Position numbers and translations under genes: made by a program
Notes under the pieces: generated by a model
What the model was told of the DNA's origin: nothing
The model's input: the letters and a program-made list of their open reading frames with translations, nothing else
Database searches by the model: none
Shown here: positions 3 to 6,895 of the stretch, in pieces
Layout: every line of letters begins with the position of its first letter
How positions within the stretch are numbered: the stretch's first letter is position 1
Assembly (NCBI GenBank): GCA_001828295.1
Contig: MHYI01000071.1
Span: 1 to 6,895, forward strand
Source of the DNA: Planctomycetes bacterium RBG_16_41_13
Lineage (GTDB): Bacteria > Planctomycetota > Brocadiia > Brocadiales > Brocadiaceae
Reading direction: 5' to 3'
DNA length: 6,895 nucleotides

Positions 3-752
3 AAACTAGGAAAGAATATTGACGACGTAAACATTTATAGAGTTGGGCATCCTTTGGCTCAGCGTATTATCGAAAAAACAAAGTCTTTATCTTTAGTAGT
101 TCAGGAGTTAGTATTCAATTACTCAGCCTCTATCAAGAAAATAAATATTTTAGAATCCCTTATAGCAAAGTCAGGCTGGTTATCTGTAATCAACTTAACA
201 ATTAATTCGTTTGAAATTGAAGATCAAATTTTGTTATGCAGCGTGACAGATGAAGGTACAGAATTGGATATTGAGCAATGTAAAAGGCTATTTTCCCTCC
301 CTGCCACAATAAGTCCCCTCTCGGGAGGGGATTCAGGGGTGGGTTCTCATGTTAAAAATCTTATAAGTCAAATAGCCCAGAGACAGCAAGCGGAAATCCT
401 GCAAATGAATTCTGTACGTAATGCAGGTTTCTTCGATACCGAGATGGAAAAATTAGACAGATGGGCAGAAGATGTGAAAAGCAGCATGGAAATTGAGTTG
501 AAAGAATTAGATAAAGAGATAAAATGCCGAAAGACAGAGGCTAAAAAGATACTGAATCTTGAAGAGAAAGTAACGGCACATCGGCAGATAAAGGAAATGG
601 AAAAGAAACGAAACACCATGCGTTTGAATTTGTATCAGACACAGGATGATGTAGATAACAAAAAAGAACAACTCATTGATGAAATTGAGACACGGTTGAA
701 GCAGAAGACAGAAACAACAGAACTGTTTACTGTCAGGTGGAAAGTTATATAA
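3..752 (+). CDS. SNF2/DEAD-box-type helicase, C-terminal part (5' end outside window)
   Basis: The frame is open from the window edge to TAA at 750-752, so this is the tail of a longer protein and the TTG at 54 is not a real start. The residues around 36-90 (YRVGHPLAQRIIEKTKSL), the GWLSVINLTI strand at 174-203 and the FFDTEMEKLDRWAED segment at 429-473 resemble the C-terminal region I remember from large (~950-1000 aa) SNF2/RapA-like helicases of defence islands. They are followed by a charged coiled coil (about 474-715) and end in LFTVRWKVI. The helicase motor motifs themselves lie upstream and cannot be seen. Such helicases would act on DNA, often beside methyltransferase or restriction genes, which fits the methyltransferase stump further down. 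An odd Gly/Ser-rich stretch at 309-347 is encoded by a hairpin repeat. DISARM DrmD-like or another SNF2 family are both possible. Family call from memory, no search run. Confidence 0.72.
   Translation, partial: KLGKNIDDVNIYRVGHPLAQRIIEKTKSLSLVVQELVFNYSASIKKINILESLIAKSGWLSVINLTINSFEIEDQILLCSVTDEGTELDIEQCKRLFSLPATISPLSGGDSGVGSHVKNLISQIAQRQQAEILQMNSVRNAGFFDTEMEKLDRWAEDVKSSMEIELKELDKEIKCRKTEAKKILNLEEKVTAHRQIKEMEKKRNTMRLNLYQTQDDVDNKKEQLIDEIETRLKQKTETTELFTVRWKVI
312..344. repeat. Hairpin repeat-like element inside the helicase reading frame
   Basis: The core cccctctcgggagggg (315-330) is an inverted repeat with a 6-bp GC stem and a 4-base tcgg loop. The stem extends to 9 pairs (312-320 with 325-333, one G-T). 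It is followed by attcaggggtgggtt. This arrangement resembles a dispersed intergenic repeat I recall from many bacterial genomes. Here it is translated in frame as ISPLSGGDSGVGS, a Gly/Ser-rich stretch unlike the surrounding helical, charged protein. Copies elsewhere in the genome cannot be checked from this window. Confidence 0.55.
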
Positions 753-765
753 TGGAGAATTGATT

Positions 766-894
766 ATGACAGTTGTAGCGCACGCTGTTATAAATAAAAA
801 TACCTTTGCGGTCTTTGAGGAAGGAAGAGGATTGAAGACTGTTTTTGTTGGTGGGACTGCTAAAGGCCGGGAGATACCCAATGACAGAGGCTGA
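766..894 (+). CDS. Small hypothetical protein (42 aa) between helicase and AlbA_2 gene
   Basis: ATG at 766 is preceded by ggaga at 754-758 with a 7-base spacer, a good SD. The ORF runs to TGA at 892-894. It starts 13 bases after the helicase stop and overlaps the next gene's ATG (881) by 14 bases in another frame, an arrangement typical of translational coupling. The product begins MTVVAHAVINKNTFAVFEEG and continues with LKTVFVGGTAKGREIP. It has alternating hydrophobic strands, no signal peptide, no membrane segment and no cysteines. I do not recognise a family. It may be a genuine small operon member, a leader peptide coupling translation of the downstream gene, or the truncated start of a lost protein. 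Without it, 753-880 would be an unusually long gap for this tightly packed operon. Confidence 0.5.
   Translation: MTVVAHAVINKNTFAVFEEGRGLKTVFVGGTAKGREIPNDRG
869..873 (+). promoter_or_regulatory. Ribosome binding site fixing the AlbA_2/ATPase start at 881
   Basis: GGGAG lies 7 bases before ATG 881. The frame stays open upstream to a TTG at 845, but the 12 extra residues have no clear SD and do not look like the family. The ATG gives a normal AlbA_2 N-terminus (MTEADKINILIKEGEGLTVE). The site lies inside the small 766-894 ORF, so ribosomes finishing that ORF could re-initiate here. Confidence 0.7.
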
Positions 895-2257
895 TAAGAT
901 AAATATACTCATTAAAGAGGGCGAAGGGCTAACGGTTGAGTATAAGGAAAGGTATACCCCAAGGATTGACCGTGATATTGTCGCGTTTGCTAATTCGAAG
1001 GGGGGGCTATTGCTTCTCGGAGTTCATGACGCGGGCAGGGTTGTTGGTGAGAAGCTAACCAACAAAATGAAGGCAGAAATACATGCTATTGCCCGGAATT
1101 GTGATCCGTCAATCCACCTTAAGAATATCCGTCAAGCGGGCAAGATAGTTATTATTGAGGTTGCAGAGGGAGATGAAAAGCCATACGCTTCATCATCCGG
1201 ATATTTCAGGCGACTTGACGCAGTAACACAGAAGATGACGCAAAGAGAGGTGCGGACGATATTTCGTGAGACTAACGATATTTCCTTTGAGGACGCCACT
1301 TGCAGAGATTTAGTCACTAAGGATATATCACTCAAGAAGGTTAAATCATTTTTACGGGAGGCGAATCTGTCTTATAAGATCAGCAAGGTGAATCTTTCTT
1401 CTTTTCTTACGAGTCTGGGTATTTACAGGAAGGGAAAAATCAACAATGCAGGGGCTTTAATGTTTGCATCTAAAGTTGAAAAATATGTCCCTCATGCAGA
1501 AAGTATTTTCGCGTCTTTCAAGGGAACGGACAAAACGAATATTTATGACCGCAATGATGTAAGAGATGACCTTTTAACCCAGTTTGGCGAATCCGTCGCT
1601 TTTTTTAAGAAACATTTGAACATCCGCAGTGAAATTCGTGGGTTTGACCGGTTTGATATTTATGAGATTCCATTAGATGCTTTAAGGGAAGCTGTTGTTA
1701 ATGCTCTAATTCACAGGGACTATGCAATGAAAGGAACAAGCTTATATGTAAGAATTTACGATGACCGTGTTGAGATAGAAAACCCCGGGGGGTTGTCTAG
1801 CGGAATTACAAGGCAGGACTTCGGCAAGTCCTCTGTAAGGAGAAATCCTATAATTGCCGATCTGTTCCACCGCATGGGTAAAGTCGAGCGTATGGGTTCC
1901 GGCATTGAACGCATGAGAGAGCTTATGCGTGATGCAGGGCTGAAAGAGCCTGTATTTGAAATGGACGCATTCTTTCGTGTCACTTTTTATCGTGATCCGC
2001 GTTATTCTCTTAAAGTGGGTAGAGAAACTGGGGAGAAAGGGTTGGTAGGTACTACCCAGAAAACTACCCAGAAAACTACCCAGAAAATCCTAGAAACTAT
2101 CACGAACAAACCTGACATTACTAAAAAAGAACTGGCAGCGGTTATAGGGATAACTGAAGACGGAGTAAAATACCATATAACCATACTTAGAAAAAAAGGC
2201 TTAATCAAACGCATCGGACCTGATAAAGGCGGGCATTGGGAGATTGTTGATGTCTAA
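881..2257 (+). CDS. AlbA_2 (Schlafen-like) / GHKL-ATPase / winged-helix protein
   Basis: A 458-aa protein of a common family annotated as ATP-binding protein or putative transcriptional regulator. Residues ~15-128 form an AlbA_2 domain (LTVEYKERY, then IVAFANSKGGLLLLGVHD, then the GYFRR strand), predicted to bind nucleic acid. Residues ~264-370 are a C-terminal GHKL-type ATPase region: N-box REAVVNALIHRDY (269-281, with E270, N274, H278), G1-like NPGGL (301-305) and the lid RMGSGIERM (337-345). A flexible linker at 391-402 repeats TTQK three times. Residues ~403-458 form a winged helix (TKKELAAVIGITEDGVKYHI recognition region, then a GHWEIV wing). The ATPase motifs look intact. The role is unproven: members occur as regulators and as defence-island genes, and AlbA_2 domains can belong to Schlafen-like RNases. 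The stop overlaps the following methyltransferase stump by 8 bases, which indicates an ancestral operon. Composition is AT-rich like the helicase and unlike the DUF2130 gene. Confidence 0.9.
   Translation: MTEADKINILIKEGEGLTVEYKERYTPRIDRDIVAFANSKGGLLLLGVHDAGRVVGEKLTNKMKAEIHAIARNCDPSIHLKNIRQAGKIVIIEVAEGDEKPYASSSGYFRRLDAVTQKMTQREVRTIFRETNDISFEDATCRDLVTKDISLKKVKSFLREANLSYKISKVNLSSFLTSLGIYRKGKINNAGALMFASKVEKYVPHAESIFASFKGTDKTNIYDRNDVRDDLLTQFGESVAFFKKHLNIRSEIRGFDRFDIYEIPLDALREAVVNALIHRDYAMKGTSLYVRIYDDRVEIENPGGLSSGITRQDFGKSSVRRNPIIADLFHRMGKVERMGSGIERMRELMRDAGLKEPVFEMDAFFRVTFYRDPRYSLKVGRETGEKGLVGTTQKTTQKTTQKILETITNKPDITKKELAAVIGITEDGVKYHITILRKKGLIKRIGPDKGGHWEIVDV
2051..2086 (+). repeat. Three tandem 12-bp units (actacccagaaa) in the linker of the AlbA_2 protein
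   Basis: Three identical copies occur at 2051-2062, 2063-2074 and 2075-2086. Each encodes TTQK, giving TTQKTTQKTTQK between the ATPase and the winged helix. Because the unit is a multiple of three, a change in copy number would lengthen or shorten the linker without shifting the frame. Similar TTQK-rich linkers are, from memory, common in this protein family. Confidence 0.9.
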
Positions 2258-2339
2258 ACCACCAAAACTTGGAATCACATGGATAGGCAAAGAACACCAG
2301 CTACGGATAGCGTTGCTCCTCGGGATGCCGGTTTGTTGA
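2250..2339 (+). pseudogene. Stump of a site-specific adenine DNA methyltransferase gene (N-terminus only)
   Basis: ATG 2250 has a good SD (GGGAG 2238-2242, 7-base spacer) and overlaps the preceding gene's stop by 8 bases. It opens with MSKPPKLGITWIGKE. This closely matches the N-terminus I remember for large type III Mod-like site-specific DNA methyltransferases (M-x-KPKLELTWIGKENRPRLEPRI). After about residue 15-18 the similarity fades (HQLRIALLLGMPVC) and TGA follows after 29 codons (2337-2339). The catalytic DPPY and AdoMet motifs are absent. The simplest reading is a modification gene removed by a deletion that left its translation start, now a dead-end peptide just before the DUF2130 gene. 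A real 29-aa protein is less likely. The match is from memory only. Confidence 0.62.
2309..2329. repeat. Fragment resembling a dispersed intergenic repeat
   Basis: The core gctcctcgggatg, reading catcccgaggagc on the other strand, resembles a widespread bacterial intergenic repeat of the form cgctcctcgggatgac, whose translations often contain HPEE. It sits exactly where similarity of the methyltransferase stump ends and before the DUF2130 SD. Only about 20 bases match, and the call rests on recollection. Confidence 0.3.
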
Positions 2340-2358
2340 TACTATCAAGGAGAGATAT

Positions 2359-3633
2359 ATGGCAGAGCCAATGATTACTTGTCCGAAATGCCAGACTGAG
2401 ATCAAACTGACAGAATCGCTTGCGGCGCCGATTGTCGAGTCCGCCCGTCGTGAGTATGAGCAACGTTTGGCACAGAAAGACGCCGATATCGCCAAACGCG
2501 AGACTTCGCTCCGTGAGCGTGAAAAAGAGCTTGCCCAGGCAAAAGAGGCTATTGATGACCAAGTCACTGAGAAATTGCGACAGGAGCGTGCCAAGATAGT
2601 CGCCGAAGAATACAAAAAGGCCAAACTTGCTCTGGCTACCGACCTTGAGCAGAAAAGAAAGGAGATTACCGATCTTCAAGAAGTTCTCAAACAGAGGGAC
2701 GAAAAACTTGCCGAGGCACAGAAGGCGCAGGCAGAAGTCTTGAAAAAGCAGCGGGAGCTTGATGACGCAAGGCGCGAATTTGACTTGACGGTGGAGAAGC
2801 GGATTCAGGAAGGGCTTGCCACTGTCCGTGAACAAGCCCAAAAAGAGGCGGAAGACCAACTGAAATTCAAGGTGTTGGAGAAAGAGCAGACTATCGCCTC
2901 CATGCAAAAACAGATTGAAGAACTCAAGCGCAGGGCGGATCAGGGGTCGCAGCAGCTTCAGGGAGAAGTCCAGGAACTTGAGCTTGAGGCGCTGTTGATC
3001 TCAAAATTCCCGCGCGATACGATAGAACCCGTCCCGAAGGGCGAGCATGGCGGCGATGTATTGCATCGGGTTATCGGTCCGCTCGGCCAAACCTGCGGTA
3101 CTATCTTATGGGAATCCAAAAGGACCAAGAGCTGGAGCGACGGTTGGCTTGTCAAGCTCCGTGAAGACCAGCGGGCAGCAAAGGCAGAGGTTGCCGTAAT
3201 CGTCAGCCAAGCGCTCCCGAAGGGCGTGGAGACATTCGAATTAATTGACGGCGTATGGGTAACGCATCCCAGGGCGGCAATCCCCATCGCCGTCACGCTC
3301 CGCCACACCCTCATTGAGGTCTCGTCAGCCCGTCAGGCCACGGAAGGACAGCAAACCAAGATGGAAATGGTCTACCAGTACCTTACCGGTCCAAGATTCC
3401 GCCAGCGAGTCCAGGCCATTGTCGAGGCGTTCTCATCCATGCAGGAAGACCTTGACAAGGAGAAGAAGGTCATTACGAAGCAATGGGCCAAGCGCGAGGA
3501 GCAGATCGGGCGCGTGATGCAGTCAACCGTAGGCATGTACGGCGACCTGCAGGGGATTGCGGGGAAGACGTTGCAGGAGATTGAGGGGCTTGGCTTACAA
3601 GTATTAGAATCGCCAAGTGATAGTACAGATTGA
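2359..3633 (+). CDS. DUF2130 family protein: coiled coil plus PD-(D/E)XK-like nuclease domain
   Basis: 424 aa, the usual size for DUF2130 proteins. ATG 2359 follows AAGGAGA (2347-2353) at a good distance. Residues 8-11 (CPKC) are half of a zinc-ribbon-like knuckle; no second CxxC is present. Residues ~30-205 are a long charged coiled coil. Residues ~206-305 are the conserved core. It has helix ELELEALLISKFP, then GGD (D233), then ILWESK (E252, K254), and then REDQRAAKAEVAVIVS (268-283), where Q271 begins a helix leading to a strand. The spacing D-x18-E-x-K, flanked by strands, matches a PD-(D/E)XK nuclease active site, so a DNA- or RNA-cleaving role is plausible, although the family is formally of unknown function. 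A second helical stretch fills ~325-415. GC content is clearly higher than in the genes before it. The next gene starts 57 bases downstream, so the two are probably co-transcribed. Confidence 0.88.
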   Translation: MAEPMITCPKCQTEIKLTESLAAPIVESARREYEQRLAQKDADIAKRETSLREREKELAQAKEAIDDQVTEKLRQERAKIVAEEYKKAKLALATDLEQKRKEITDLQEVLKQRDEKLAEAQKAQAEVLKKQRELDDARREFDLTVEKRIQEGLATVREQAQKEAEDQLKFKVLEKEQTIASMQKQIEELKRRADQGSQQLQGEVQELELEALLISKFPRDTIEPVPKGEHGGDVLHRVIGPLGQTCGTILWESKRTKSWSDGWLVKLREDQRAAKAEVAVIVSQALPKGVETFELIDGVWVTHPRAAIPIAVTLRHTLIEVSSARQATEGQQTKMEMVYQYLTGPRFRQRVQAIVEAFSSMQEDLDKEKKVITKQWAKREEQIGRVMQSTVGMYGDLQGIAGKTLQEIEGLGLQVLESPSDSTD

Positions 3634-3690: not shown

Positions 3691-6594
3691 ATGGCTTCAT
3701 GCCCAGTTATACAACATGATGTTCGAGGTTCACTTTGGCATCGATGGGATCTGCACTTTCACACACCTAGTTCATTCGACTACGGAAACAAGAGTGTAAC
3801 CAATCGGCAGATTGTTGGTCGTCTTATCGCTGAGGGCGTCCGTGTCGTGGTGGTTACTGATCACCATACAATAGACGTTGCGCGTATTCGAGAACTACAG
3901 CAACTCGGCGGTGAGCGACTTGCTGTATTGCCTGGGATTGAATTAAGAGGCGACCATGGTGGTGAGCCTATTCATTACATTTGCGTTTTCTCCGAAGACT
4001 GTGACCTCGACCATGTCTGGACTACCCTTCAGGGCAGTTTAGGACTCACCGCGGTAGCTATTCGAGAAAAAGGGGGCGACGAAAAGATTTACGTTCCCAT
4101 TGAGGATGGTGCCAAACAGACGCGCAACCTGGGAGGAGTAGTTTCAATTCACGCGGGGACTAAGAGCAACTCAATCGAATCAATCAAGAACAACGAACAG
4201 TTTCAGCAGCGAATCAAATACGACATCACCAGAGAATGGGTCAACTTGATGGAGATCGGCCAACTAAAGGATATAGACGTTCACCTGAACACAATATTCC
4301 CTGAAACAGGCCTGGACAAACCACTGGTTATCTGTTCTGATAATCACGATATCGCAAACTACAAAATCAAAGTTCCGCTCTGGTTTCGTGCTGACCCTAC
4401 TTATCGCGGAATGTTGATGGTAATCCGAGAACCTAGAGGGCGTGTTCATATCGGTGACCGGCCACCGGAGATAGTTCGCGTCGAGCAGAATCGCACCAAG
4501 TACATCAGTAAAGTTTCCTTTCAGCGCAAACCAAGTGCACCTGCTTCGGAACACTGGTTTAGTGGCAGCATTTCTTTCAATCCTGGCCTAGTTGCTATCG
4601 TTGGGAACAAAGGCAGTGGCAAGAGTGCGCTTGCCGATACCTTGGGATTACTCGGAGCATGCAAAAATACCGACTCATTTTCGTTCCTAAGCAAGAAGCG
4701 ATTTTGCCATCCAACAGGAGGCTTTGCCGCACACTTTGAAGCCACTCTTGAATGGCAATCAGGCGAGCAAGTCCCTCGATGTTTGGCCGATACCACAAAG
4801 CCTGAAGAGGTTGAACGGTTGAAGTATTTGCCTCAAGACCACGTGGAGAAGGTCTGTAATGAGCTTGTAGGGATTGGCGAAAAGGGTTTTGAACAAGAGT
4901 TAAAAGGTGTAATTTTTTCGCACGTTCCGGAAGCACAGCGTTTGGGACAATCAACCCTTGATGATCTTGTTCGTTTCCAAACAGGTGAAAAACAGAAGCG
5001 AATTGATTCCTTGCTGAGGCAACTCCGTGAGACAAGTAGGTCGCGGGCCATTCTTGAAGTCCAAGCCGATCCTAATGCCAGGCGTGAACTGCTAGAGAAG
5101 ATCAAACGGCGTGAGATCGAGATCGAAGCGCACGAGAAAATTAAGCCGATAGAACAGCCCAACCCATCTGCAAGCAGTGGGAGTTTATCCTCAGAACCGG
5201 AGGTACTCCAGGACTTGAGCATTGCAGAGAACGCCAAGAAAACGATTGAGGACCAAATTGCTCAAGCAGAGAGACGCTTGCGTACCGCGGAACGTCGCCA
5301 TGCCGTGGCTAAACGACTGATCGAAAAACTTGTGAACTTTCAAAAGGATTTTGACGTTTTCTCGGCGTCATTGAGTGAAGATGCTAAAGAGCTTGAATTG
5401 GACCCCGCCAATCTCGTATCGTTATCCATTAAAAAATCAGACGCCGAGAATATTCAAAATGAAGCAGCGTTGGCAATCTCGTCTGCAAAGAAACAACTGA
5501 ATAACACCCACCCTGATGGGCTGAGAAAACAACTCAATGAGAGCCTGTTAAAGATATCTGGGATACAGTCAAAGCTCGACGCACCGAACCGTGCCTATCA
5601 AGTGTATCTCAAAGCGTTGGATGAATGGCAGGAAAAACGAATAAAGCTTGAAGAAGACGAGCAAGATGTCGAATCGTTAAAGGGGCTTAAAGCGACACTC
5701 ACAGCGCTTGATGATTTGCCAGCGAAGATAGCCAAGCTGAAATCTCAGCAAAGCAATCTTGCGCTTAAGATTCACACAGAAAAACTCGCGCAAGCTTCGG
5801 TTTACCGAACCCTTTATGAACCAGTTCAACAGTTCATTGATTCACATGCGCTGGCAAAAGACAAATTGAAACTAGAATTCCGAGTAGAGTTAGCCAACGG
5901 GGATTTCGTGGACCGACTGCTGGGATTGCTGGCACTTAACAGACGAGGCAGCTTCATGGGTGTTGATGAGGGTCGCGCGAAAGCGGAGGGTTTTGTTCAG
6001 CACACAAAATGGGAAGAGGCGGAGTCAGTCCGGGTGTTTCTTGAGGGCATAGACTCGGCATTAAATACGGACCAGCGGGAGAATCCAGCTCCACAAGTCC
6101 AACTCAAAGACCAGCTTTTGCGCGGGAAGAAGGTCGAGGAGGTCTTTGATCTATTGTATGGGCTGGAATACATCCATCCGAGGTACATCCTGCGTTGGGA
6201 AGGCAAAGACCTTGCTATGCTTTCTCCTGGTGAACGTGGAACATTATTGCTTGTTTTCTATTTGCTGATCGATAAAGGCGACATGCCGCTGTTGATTGAT
6301 CAGCCCGAAGGTAATCTCGACAACCATACCGTTGCCAAGGTTCTGGTGGACTGTATTCGAGAGGCTCGAAAGCGGCGGCAAGTCTTCATCGTCACACACA
6401 ACCCGAACCTAGCGGTGGTGTGCGATGCTGACCAAATTGTTCACGCGAGTATGGACAAGATGAACGGCAATGCGATTACATATACGTGTGGCGCTTTGGA
6501 GAACCCCAACATGAGCCTACACGTAACGGATGTGCTGGAAGGTACACGCTGGGCATTCGACATGCGCGGTGCAAAGTATGAAGTTGGGAAATAG
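3691..6594 (+). CDS. PHP phosphoesterase-SMC/Rad50-like ATPase fusion (TrlF family, Ppl-like defence protein)
   Basis: 967 aa. Residues ~18-260 are a PHP metal-dependent phosphoesterase domain with all expected ligand motifs: DLHFH (D20, H22, H24), TDHH (D57, H58), GIEL (E84), SIHAG (H154) and SDNHD (D217, H219). Residues ~270-967 form an ABC/SMC-type ATPase: Walker A GNKGSGKS (305-312), Q-loop YLPQDH (Q382), and coiled-coil arms (~430-480 and ~510-710) broken by a Pro/Ser-rich linker at ~486-506. The signature LSPGERGT (844-851), Walker B LLIDQPEGNLD (867-877) and H-loop VTHNPN (H903) follow. NCBI names such proteins TrlF family AAA-like ATPase. The same architecture, PHP plus ATPase, is the single-gene antiphage protein Ppl. 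Likely a cytoplasmic ATP-gated nuclease or phosphoesterase; the substrate is unknown. All key residues look intact, so it should be active. No Rad50-type CxxC zinc hook is present. It follows the DUF2130 gene closely and probably shares its transcript. Confidence 0.9.
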   Translation: MASCPVIQHDVRGSLWHRWDLHFHTPSSFDYGNKSVTNRQIVGRLIAEGVRVVVVTDHHTIDVARIRELQQLGGERLAVLPGIELRGDHGGEPIHYICVFSEDCDLDHVWTTLQGSLGLTAVAIREKGGDEKIYVPIEDGAKQTRNLGGVVSIHAGTKSNSIESIKNNEQFQQRIKYDITREWVNLMEIGQLKDIDVHLNTIFPETGLDKPLVICSDNHDIANYKIKVPLWFRADPTYRGMLMVIREPRGRVHIGDRPPEIVRVEQNRTKYISKVSFQRKPSAPASEHWFSGSISFNPGLVAIVGNKGSGKSALADTLGLLGACKNTDSFSFLSKKRFCHPTGGFAAHFEATLEWQSGEQVPRCLADTTKPEEVERLKYLPQDHVEKVCNELVGIGEKGFEQELKGVIFSHVPEAQRLGQSTLDDLVRFQTGEKQKRIDSLLRQLRETSRSRAILEVQADPNARRELLEKIKRREIEIEAHEKIKPIEQPNPSASSGSLSSEPEVLQDLSIAENAKKTIEDQIAQAERRLRTAERRHAVAKRLIEKLVNFQKDFDVFSASLSEDAKELELDPANLVSLSIKKSDAENIQNEAALAISSAKKQLNNTHPDGLRKQLNESLLKISGIQSKLDAPNRAYQVYLKALDEWQEKRIKLEEDEQDVESLKGLKATLTALDDLPAKIAKLKSQQSNLALKIHTEKLAQASVYRTLYEPVQQFIDSHALAKDKLKLEFRVELANGDFVDRLLGLLALNRRGSFMGVDEGRAKAEGFVQHTKWEEAESVRVFLEGIDSALNTDQRENPAPQVQLKDQLLRGKKVEEVFDLLYGLEYIHPRYILRWEGKDLAMLSPGERGTLLLVFYLLIDKGDMPLLIDQPEGNLDNHTVAKVLVDCIREARKRRQVFIVTHNPNLAVVCDADQIVHASMDKMNGNAITYTCGALENPNMSLHVTDVLEGTRWAFDMRGAKYEVGK

Positions 6595-6732: not shown

Positions 6733-6895
6733 ATGAAGAAATGGATAACATCTGCGATGGAAACACTTGAAGCCTGTCTTGGGCCGGTGTCCCACGAGAT
6801 TAACGAACTTGACTGGAAACAAAGTCTTTCGCCCAAGAAAGAGCGTCTGATGCAACACCTTTCAGCCTTTGCCAACCATTCAAGCGGCGGTGTTC
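6733..6895 (+). CDS. AlbA_2 (Schlafen-like) domain protein, N-terminal part (3' end outside window)
   Basis: ATG 6733 opens a frame that stays open to the window edge (54 full codons). The product starts MKKWITSAMETLEACLGPVS. It continues with NELDWKQSLSPKKERLMQHL and SAFANHSSGGV, which matches the opening of AlbA_2 domains: E-x-D-x-K, then S-P-K, then a helix ending AFAN followed by a Gly-rich turn. The SD before 6733 is weak. An in-frame ATG at 6757 is an alternative start but has no better SD. A three-codon ATG-AAC-CAA-TGA at 6725-6736 overlaps the start, probably by chance. A GHKL ATPase or other domain may follow outside the window. The 138-base gap before it suggests a separate transcription unit or looser association with the PHP-ATPase gene. 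Confidence 0.75.
   Translation, partial: MKKWITSAMETLEACLGPVSHEINELDWKQSLSPKKERLMQHLSAFANHSSGGV

Follow-up and report, generated by a model that had tools for sequence, protein, structure and literature searches.

What is a 29-codon open frame that begins like a methyltransferase gene doing between an AlbA_2 gene and a DUF2130 gene, and does it mean that methylation has been lost from the operon? The question is raised by a 6,895-nt stretch of DNA from Planctomycetes bacterium RBG_16_41_13 (contig MHYI01000071.1), which was analysed at full length and is referred to below as the window. An earlier sequence-only reading had taken the frame for the remnant of a type III Mod-like methyltransferase gene and had argued that, if the helicase operon once needed this enzyme for self-protection, its loss implies that the cutting activity is also gone, moved or repurposed. 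We reach a partly different answer, namely that the frame is probably a scar and not a gene, left when defence genes were inserted between a DrmD-like helicase and the methyltransferase gene (Mod) and stranded the first codons of the latter. The features of the window are given below, with the helicase-Mod interval called the slot and with L and G numbers denoting loci and genomes.

3–752, forward strand: C-terminal part of a DrmD-like SNF2 helicase, the left wall of the slot (amino acid identity 82% to the L012 and 92% to the L043 helicase)
753–880, forward strand: mosaic gap between helicase and AlbA_2 gene (blastn)
881–2257, forward strand: AlbA_2 (Schlafen)-HATPase_c_4-wHTH gene, first gene of the slot (PF04326, PF13749, PF13412)
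2250–2301, forward strand: scar that holds the initial ~17 codons of a type III Mod gene and overlaps the stop of AlbA_2 (Mod-start profile; same junction with Mod in L014, L019, L036, L176 and L191)
2302–2339, forward strand: tail of the scar, not recognisable as Mod, ending in TGA (found before DUF2130)
2347–2352, forward strand: Shine-Dalgarno-like AAGGAG, the DUF2130 gene's own (kept in L010, L015 and L043)
2359–3633, forward strand: DUF2130 gene, behind the scar (PF09903, E = 2.7e-78)
3691–6594, forward strand: TrlF-family ATPase gene, behind DUF2130 (NF045780, E = 3.4e-185)
6733–6894, forward strand: 5′ part of the following gene, truncated by the end of the window (94% amino acid identity over 54 residues to L043 14985)

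In blastn comparisons, positions 746–782 are similar to the DNA that follows the helicase in L167 and L043, and positions 828–885 resemble the 3′ end of a small upstream ORF, presumably PIN-like, together with the AlbA_2 leader in L001, L010, L015 and L163; the latter stretch is probably another remnant. Between the ATPase and wHTH parts of the AlbA_2 gene lies a 12-bp tandem repeat (2051–2091, TTQK) that has copies in other loci, and since the DNA similarity to L014 and L015 also begins there, it may be another recombination joint. The DUF2130 product is 91% and 90% identical in amino acid sequence to those of L010 and L015, both of which carry the same scar, and the DUF2130-TrlF order recurs in L018 (68%) and L015 (32%).

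The 29-codon frame (2250–2339) encodes MSKPPKLGITWIGKEHQLRIALLLGMPVC. As had been noted from the sequence, its start overlaps the AlbA_2/ATPase gene and is preceded by a Shine-Dalgarno-like motif: the ATG at 2250 lies in the AlbA_2 stop (ATGTCTAA, 2250–2257), with GGGAG upstream at 2238–2242, and the frame closes 19 nt upstream of the DUF2130 start. The 29 residues alone matched no model in Pfam or NCBIfam. The first ~17 codons, rather than the ~15 originally proposed, match the start of full Mod genes, and Mod homology stops near 2301 (codon 17). Among the loci examined, the remaining 12 codons were found solely ahead of DUF2130; by-eye comparison suggested at most that codons 18–29 may be Mod sequence past a small deletion. 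The sequence-only reading had proposed to look for relatives with a full methyltransferase gene at this exact junction, and Mod begins there in L014, L019, L036, L176 and L191, its frame being open over the available DNA in L019, L036 and L191 and shifted in L014 and L176. Positions 2051–2293 of the window are 90% identical to L014, which has kept the direct AlbA_2-Mod junction, and the match ends within the scar; L014 (no insert) and the window and L015 (insert) are 87–90% alike in DNA up to the join, and are not strain-level pairs.

To follow the fragment further, we built a DNA profile from ten Mod starts and ran it over the window and 49 chosen loci. These 50 mapped loci comprise 34 from Mod-start searches, 15 chosen after viewing junctions from a set of 80 (themselves kept out of 303 loci from an AlbA_2 protein search of genome contigs), and the window, which was itself found by the profile with E = 2.5e-5. 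The profile gave 66 matches in 47 of the 50 loci, and no locus had matches on both strands; a script rule placed 34 at the start of a Mod alignment, some broken Mods included, and the other 32 elsewhere. Decayed or divergent scars in L010, L018, L165 and L166 were added by eye, giving 70 instances in total. The profile match, the single strand of the matches in each locus and the L014 match that ends in the scar indicate that the likeness to Mod is real, and on these comparisons the frame is confirmed as the stranded 5′ end of a type III Mod gene.

Mod-start matches in DNA were found in 19 of 62 genomes of the order of G011 (Candidatus Jettenia ecosi, the genome of L018), 21 of 230 genomes of the class of G013 (L036, Thermodesulfovibrionia) and 15 of 297 genomes of the phylum of G012 (L019, Deltaproteobacteria). 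Two or more matches were present in 14/19, at least 5/21 and at least 0/15 of these genomes, respectively, the last two counts being minimum values, as scoring was limited to three candidates per genome. Most relatives are metagenome-assembled genomes by record title, as an assembly chimera might have it, but the scar recurs across many genomes, including a record titled complete genome (L011) and the multi-megabase contigs G041 and G043, and this recurrence already refutes chance similarity or a chimera as its source.

The frame might instead have been retained for its product or its position, as a functional leader peptide or as a translational coupler from AlbA_2 to DUF2130. The identical 29-residue frame is open in the window, L010 and L015, and the overlap with the AlbA_2 stop and the 19-nt spacing to DUF2130 would suit such a role. 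Among the 11 scars that precede DUF2130, however, only four have a frame that runs uninterrupted to its stop codon (the window, L010, L015 and L182) and seven a broken one (L001, L018, L160, L161, L162, L165 and L166), so the product is unlikely to be under selection; a conserved short peptide gene was sought across these equivalent positions and the open frame is not kept. In addition, AlbA_2 is followed by DUF2130 with no scar between them in L003, L043 and L163, and the scar stands behind the helicase instead of AlbA_2 in L161 and L162. We therefore regard a leader or coupler as very improbable. Conserved ORFs of the same 29-residue length in many genomes had been named in advance as an argument against a remnant; such conservation extends to L010 and L015 and fails in the seven broken scars.

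In the relatives, Mod is a type III methyltransferase gene that lies upstream of a type III Res gene. The L018 Mod matches PF01555 (2e-50) and the PADLOC MTase_III model (2.6e-194), as an N6/N4 methylase should, and its Res matches PF04851 (3.4e-21) and PADLOC REase_III (9.2e-181), as a ResIII/helicase protein should. The interval between helicase and Mod holds DUF2130, TrlF, DUF1016/YhcG, further AlbA_2 genes, SIR2_2, HerA and unidentified genes. In L001 (12051–15615) and L169 (174–1256), SIR2_2 and HerA genes (a HerA relative in L169) occupy the slot, with a Mod-start scar behind each HerA gene. These loci thus resemble type III restriction-modification in their Mod-Res pair and differ from it in the DrmD-like helicase and the slot of accessory genes that precede it.

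On the reading that we prefer, the ancestral operon would have had the order DrmD-like helicase, AlbA_2, Mod, (DUF559) and Res. A block carrying DUF2130 (and TrlF) would have entered between AlbA_2 and Mod through recombination, with its left join ~17 codons into the resident Mod, so leaving the first codons of that Mod behind AlbA_2, and with its right side bringing a Mod copy further downstream. Such stacking is most simply explained if an incoming version of the operon (gene X plus Mod) recombined with the resident one, the right side lying in the shared Mod. Similar events with other defence genes would make the helicase-Mod interval a slot in which genes pile up, each stranded Mod start marking an earlier position of Mod, and the displaced Mod would have survived intact in part of the relatives and have decayed or disappeared in the rest. 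We infer that recombination between versions of the operon created the joins and that subsequent exchange, with gain or loss of genes, ran through the 40–75 bp of homology that two Mod starts around a gene would offer. Because a join upstream of Mod would leave no scar and one far downstream would leave a long truncated methyltransferase, short remnants may be favoured. About eight Mod remnants exceed 85 nt, which counts against this reading.

The alternative closest to the original reading is in-place loss, in which a Mod between AlbA_2 and DUF2130 was deleted from codon 17 onwards and the operon no longer modifies or cuts. The two accounts were weighed on the 31 other scar-bearing loci, that is, the 28 with an unattached Mod start (window counted) plus L010, L018, L165 and L166 found by eye, minus the window. 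In 16 of them a Mod alignment follows further downstream, past the genes that come after the scar (L001, L003, L005, L011, L012, L015, L018, L036, L043, L159, L160, L161, L162, L165, L166 and L169), against in-place loss. Six of the 16 have full-length open Mod and Res genes (L003, L018, L159, L160, L161 and L165), though the scars of L018 and L165 have themselves decayed. In the others, Mod is open and Res ends early (L162), Res is open and Mod split (L169), Mod is open and Res runs across masked bases (L005), the operon runs off the contig (L036), or Mod and/or Res are broken (L001, L011, L012, L015, L043 and L166). In nine of the 31 loci no Mod, or only a distant one (L181, 35% identity), is found across at least 5 kb (L170, L172, L173, L177, L179, L180, L181, L183 and L186), which does favour loss, and six have less than 5 kb of DNA, too short to judge (L009, L010, L182, L184, L188 and L189).

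Mod loss is thus common among scar-bearing loci, and these operons often carry internal deletions (L001, L177 and L178): codon 33 of Mod is fused to the end of Res in L177, and most of Mod is missing in L001. In L178 (10450–11163 of the oriented locus), helicase codons 1–210 are in frame with the last AlbA_2 codons and are followed by Mod, the gene ends being kept. The two loci that share the open 29-codon frame and DUF2130 with the window also point towards decay. In L015, Mod is reduced to a stub of 52 codons, 5.9 kb downstream, and Res to pieces. The L010 contig stops 3.6 kb further, and L173, from the same genome and probably the continuation of that contig, has two Mod-start scars around DUF1016 (963–2173) and then genes unrelated to the operon, with no Mod or Res; Mod has apparently been lost in this genome, as judged through L173. 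Further points stand against in-place loss as the origin of the scar: L001, L043 and L160 each carry two scars as well as a Mod copy, the scar-DUF2130 joint is found alike behind the helicase, AlbA_2 and other left flanks, and none of the 50 mapped loci has a full Mod directly followed by DUF2130. In-place loss is accordingly unlikely in our view. With a Mod copy downstream in 16 of the 31 loci and open Mod and Res in six, a scar alone is not proof of Mod loss; of the earlier reading, the ancestral Mod at the junction holds, and the inferred loss of methylation and cutting is real in some relatives (L015, L173) and is not the rule.

The window itself contains only ~17 Mod codons, and its DNA stops at 6895, ahead of any Mod or Res. 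Over its final 256 bases it is 96% identical to L043 (Planctomycetia bacterium isolate H5_AMX3). A homologue of the gene that begins at 6733 is matched in 29 of 62 genomes of the G011 order, and close homologues (at least 85% identity over the matched part, or the stop-interrupted G014 copy, whose first 54 residues are 94% identical to the window) occur only in G033, G029, G050 and G014, where a Mod start follows in 4/4, G033 being the query's own genome. Distant homologues (55% identity or less), for example in G016, sit elsewhere, and G016 has no Mod-start match. Since Mod comes after this gene in each of the four genomes, we predict that a Mod copy, whether intact or broken, probably lies just beyond the right end of the window; Mod is intact in one of the four (L159).

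Scars stand before DUF2130, DUF1016, AlbA_2 and other genes, and their flanks are mixed. Clustering of 124-bp left and 180-bp right flanks showed that the AlbA_2 end, in 18 instances, is followed by six kinds of right flank: Mod in eight, DUF2130 in four, DUF1016 in two, a helicase end plus an AlbA_2 relative in two, and two single types. Conversely, the DUF2130 right flank (11 loci) has six kinds of left flank and the DUF1016 right flank (seven loci) five, some of these left-flank kinds being single, decayed sequences that are perhaps decayed forms of others. The Mod start is joined to the helicase 3′ end in L036 and L009 and apparently, by eye, in L179. It looks as if the scar-DUF2130 joint, with its tail, formed once and later travelled. 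A common left flank precedes Mod starts in L001, L011, L012, L160, L162 and L168, with three different right neighbours.

The evidence that scars may be recent local copies of their own genome's Mod start is mixed. In L001, L005, L036 and L043 the resemblance is distinctive, with just 5–11% of other Mod starts as close, and in L011, L012, L015, L018, L165 and L166 the scar is not specially near its own Mod start (42–68% of others as close). The DUF1016 scar of L005 is 93% identical over 42 nt to the Mod start of the same genome, and the joint behind it resembles that of L173, as would be expected from exchange through the Mod start.

As a control, we asked whether ends of other genes are also found loose. 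In the 50 mapped loci, copies of a gene's first (or last) 96 nt were scored as unattached if the adjoining ~200 nt was missing, and matches within 150 nt of a locus end were scored as attached. Unattached 5′ ends made up 34/65 for Mod, 6/14 for DUF2130, 2/15 for DUF559, 1/5 (weak) for one AlbA_2 relative, 1/17 for the helicase, 0/24 for Res and 0/21 for AlbA_2; among 3′ ends the values were 9/31 for the helicase, 4/28 for AlbA_2, 3/20 for Res, 0/8 for DUF2130, 0/7 for DUF1016 and 0/4 for the AlbA_2 relative. Since the mapped loci had been chosen partly by Mod start or junction, the control was repeated on the 80 AlbA_2 loci and the window. Here the unattached 5′ ends were 12/23 for Mod (with one more at a locus end), 2/7 for DUF2130, 2/9 for Res, 1/7 for DUF559, 4/32 for AlbA_2 and 0/8 for the helicase, and the unattached 3′ ends 7/16 for the helicase, 14/90 for AlbA_2 and 0/6 each for DUF2130 and Res. 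The 3′ ends of Mod and DUF559 were unusable because a dispersed palindromic repeat swamps them, and the 5′ ends of TrlF and DUF1016 were left out since full copies were too few for a profile. Loose ends are conspicuous at both walls of the slot, at the Mod start and at the helicase end. Mod is not alone in having stranded starts, since DUF2130 has them too. Starts of DUF2130 that lack the gene body lie before other genes in L161 (9600), L162 (10265), L163 (9683), L043 (11404), L160 (8786) and L001 (11642; all in oriented loci).

Codon usage at the Mod start was compared between two groups that belong to different phyla by record title, five loci of the G013 class and eleven of the G011 order. 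Of 37 Mod frames, the 17 longer than 400 codons were aligned and 16 used (L019 falls in neither group); the pairs are not independent. At conserved residues the same codon is used in 393/544 cases (0.72) in the Mod start, 419/711 in the next 16 codons and 7761/16427 (0.47) in the body, and Mod-start windows are the top eleven of 427. With another selection of sequences the Mod start ranked third of 448. Among windows starting in the first 25 columns, the best one was 20th of 888 for the helicase, 72nd of 802 for Res and 42nd of 401 for AlbA_2 (other selection); the helicase 3′ end came near the top, and the high windows of Res lie inside the gene and near its end (other selection). The codon conservation of the Mod start suggests either exchange or constraint.

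It is tempting to go further and propose, tentatively and with somewhat less than even confidence, that the first 15–28 codons of Mod form a recurring recombination joint, through which units consisting of a Mod start plus a gene, or of a helicase end, a gene and a Mod start, may be exchanged between operons and even between phyla, so that the loci would amount to an integrase-free array of defence cassettes whose scars give the order of arrival. A site-specific version of this idea, in which a recombinase uses an inverted repeat in the Mod start as its attachment site, seems quite improbable to us. The repeat (CCAGC-CGAA-GCTGG or CAGCC-GA-GGCTG) occurs in 16 of the 25 full Mod starts that were inspected, and eight of 14 junction types end within it, at model positions 42–56 (a hand count that takes the commonest value per type). 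Yet the ends span positions 37–75 over the 14 types and longer remnants exist as well, the repeat is missing in eight of the 25 Mod starts and a different one is found in L019, DUF2130 starts are stranded as well, and the clustering of ends was spotted after the fact.

Several known systems bear comparison with the insertion account. In the insertion with long target duplication described for restriction-modification genes (Nobusato et al., 2000, as cited in PMC3031569 and PMC4978471), the inserted DNA lies between direct copies of a long target, in one case with one restriction-modification system inside another. Direct copies likewise flank the inserts here, as a scar and a Mod start on either side of the inserted genes, e.g., in L005, L011, L015 and L001. 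In contrast to the cases described in the available parts of those sources, here defence genes enter a restriction-modification operon, the duplicated piece is the operon's own Mod 5′ end, and the copies are diverged and stacked. Accessory genes embedded in restriction-modification operons, as here, are described in the accessible portions of reports on rlo/mlo in Campylobacter hsd loci and prrC in EcoprrI (PMC5183652, PMC3874165, PMC12707154); those are type I systems, with stranded gene starts not mentioned in the available text of PMC5183652 and PMC3874165, as opposed to type III genes with scars in the present loci. In the openly available literature on restriction-modification operons with inserted genes, on target duplication and on DrmD/SNF2 helicases with type III restriction, from which subscription papers are mostly absent, no description of Mod-start scars was found.

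The domain order of the window's AlbA_2 gene is also that of a backup effector from BREX loci, in which Schlafen is joined to a minimal histidine kinase and a wHTH and which is linked to core defence genes, as outlined in the accessible part of PMC12839542, in which DrmD, DUF2130 and DUF1016 do not occur. The genes that were examined revealed no BREX system; the SNF2 helicase cross-matches BrxHI/BrxHII, more weakly. As for DISARM, the full-length L012 relative of the helicase has SNF2-rel_dom and Helicase_C matches and is recognised by the PADLOC DrmD model (E = 2.1e-210), and the window fragment alone reaches 22.5 bits against NF038318, far below the cut-off of 950. DrmB, which we take to be a core component of DISARM represented by PF09369, was not found at the locus; PF09369 is present in 3/15 genomes, ~2.5 Mb from the operon in G007 and on other contigs in G003 and G008, and membership in DISARM is therefore not supported. 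In viral contigs, 22 pattern matches for DUF2130 yielded no confirmed relative, and window positions 2180–2500 had no match in a plasmid collection.

Defence genes cluster, though the splicing of single genes into an existing operon is rarely visible. The scars record such joins, giving the former site of the Mod start, a suggested order of gene arrival and the gene starts and ends used as joints. Because Mod is still found downstream in 16 of the 31 other scar-bearing loci, a short ORF annotated as a truncated methyltransferase need not mean a lost methyltransferase, and the Mod-start scar provides a simple DNA signature by which accessory defence genes beside type III systems can be located. 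Apart from the scar, a palindromic repeat at 304–347 of the window lies in frame within the helicase gene and is translated PLSGGDSGVG; near copies of it occur in the Mod and Res regions of relatives, several of them directly past the SYG of Mod, near codon 34.
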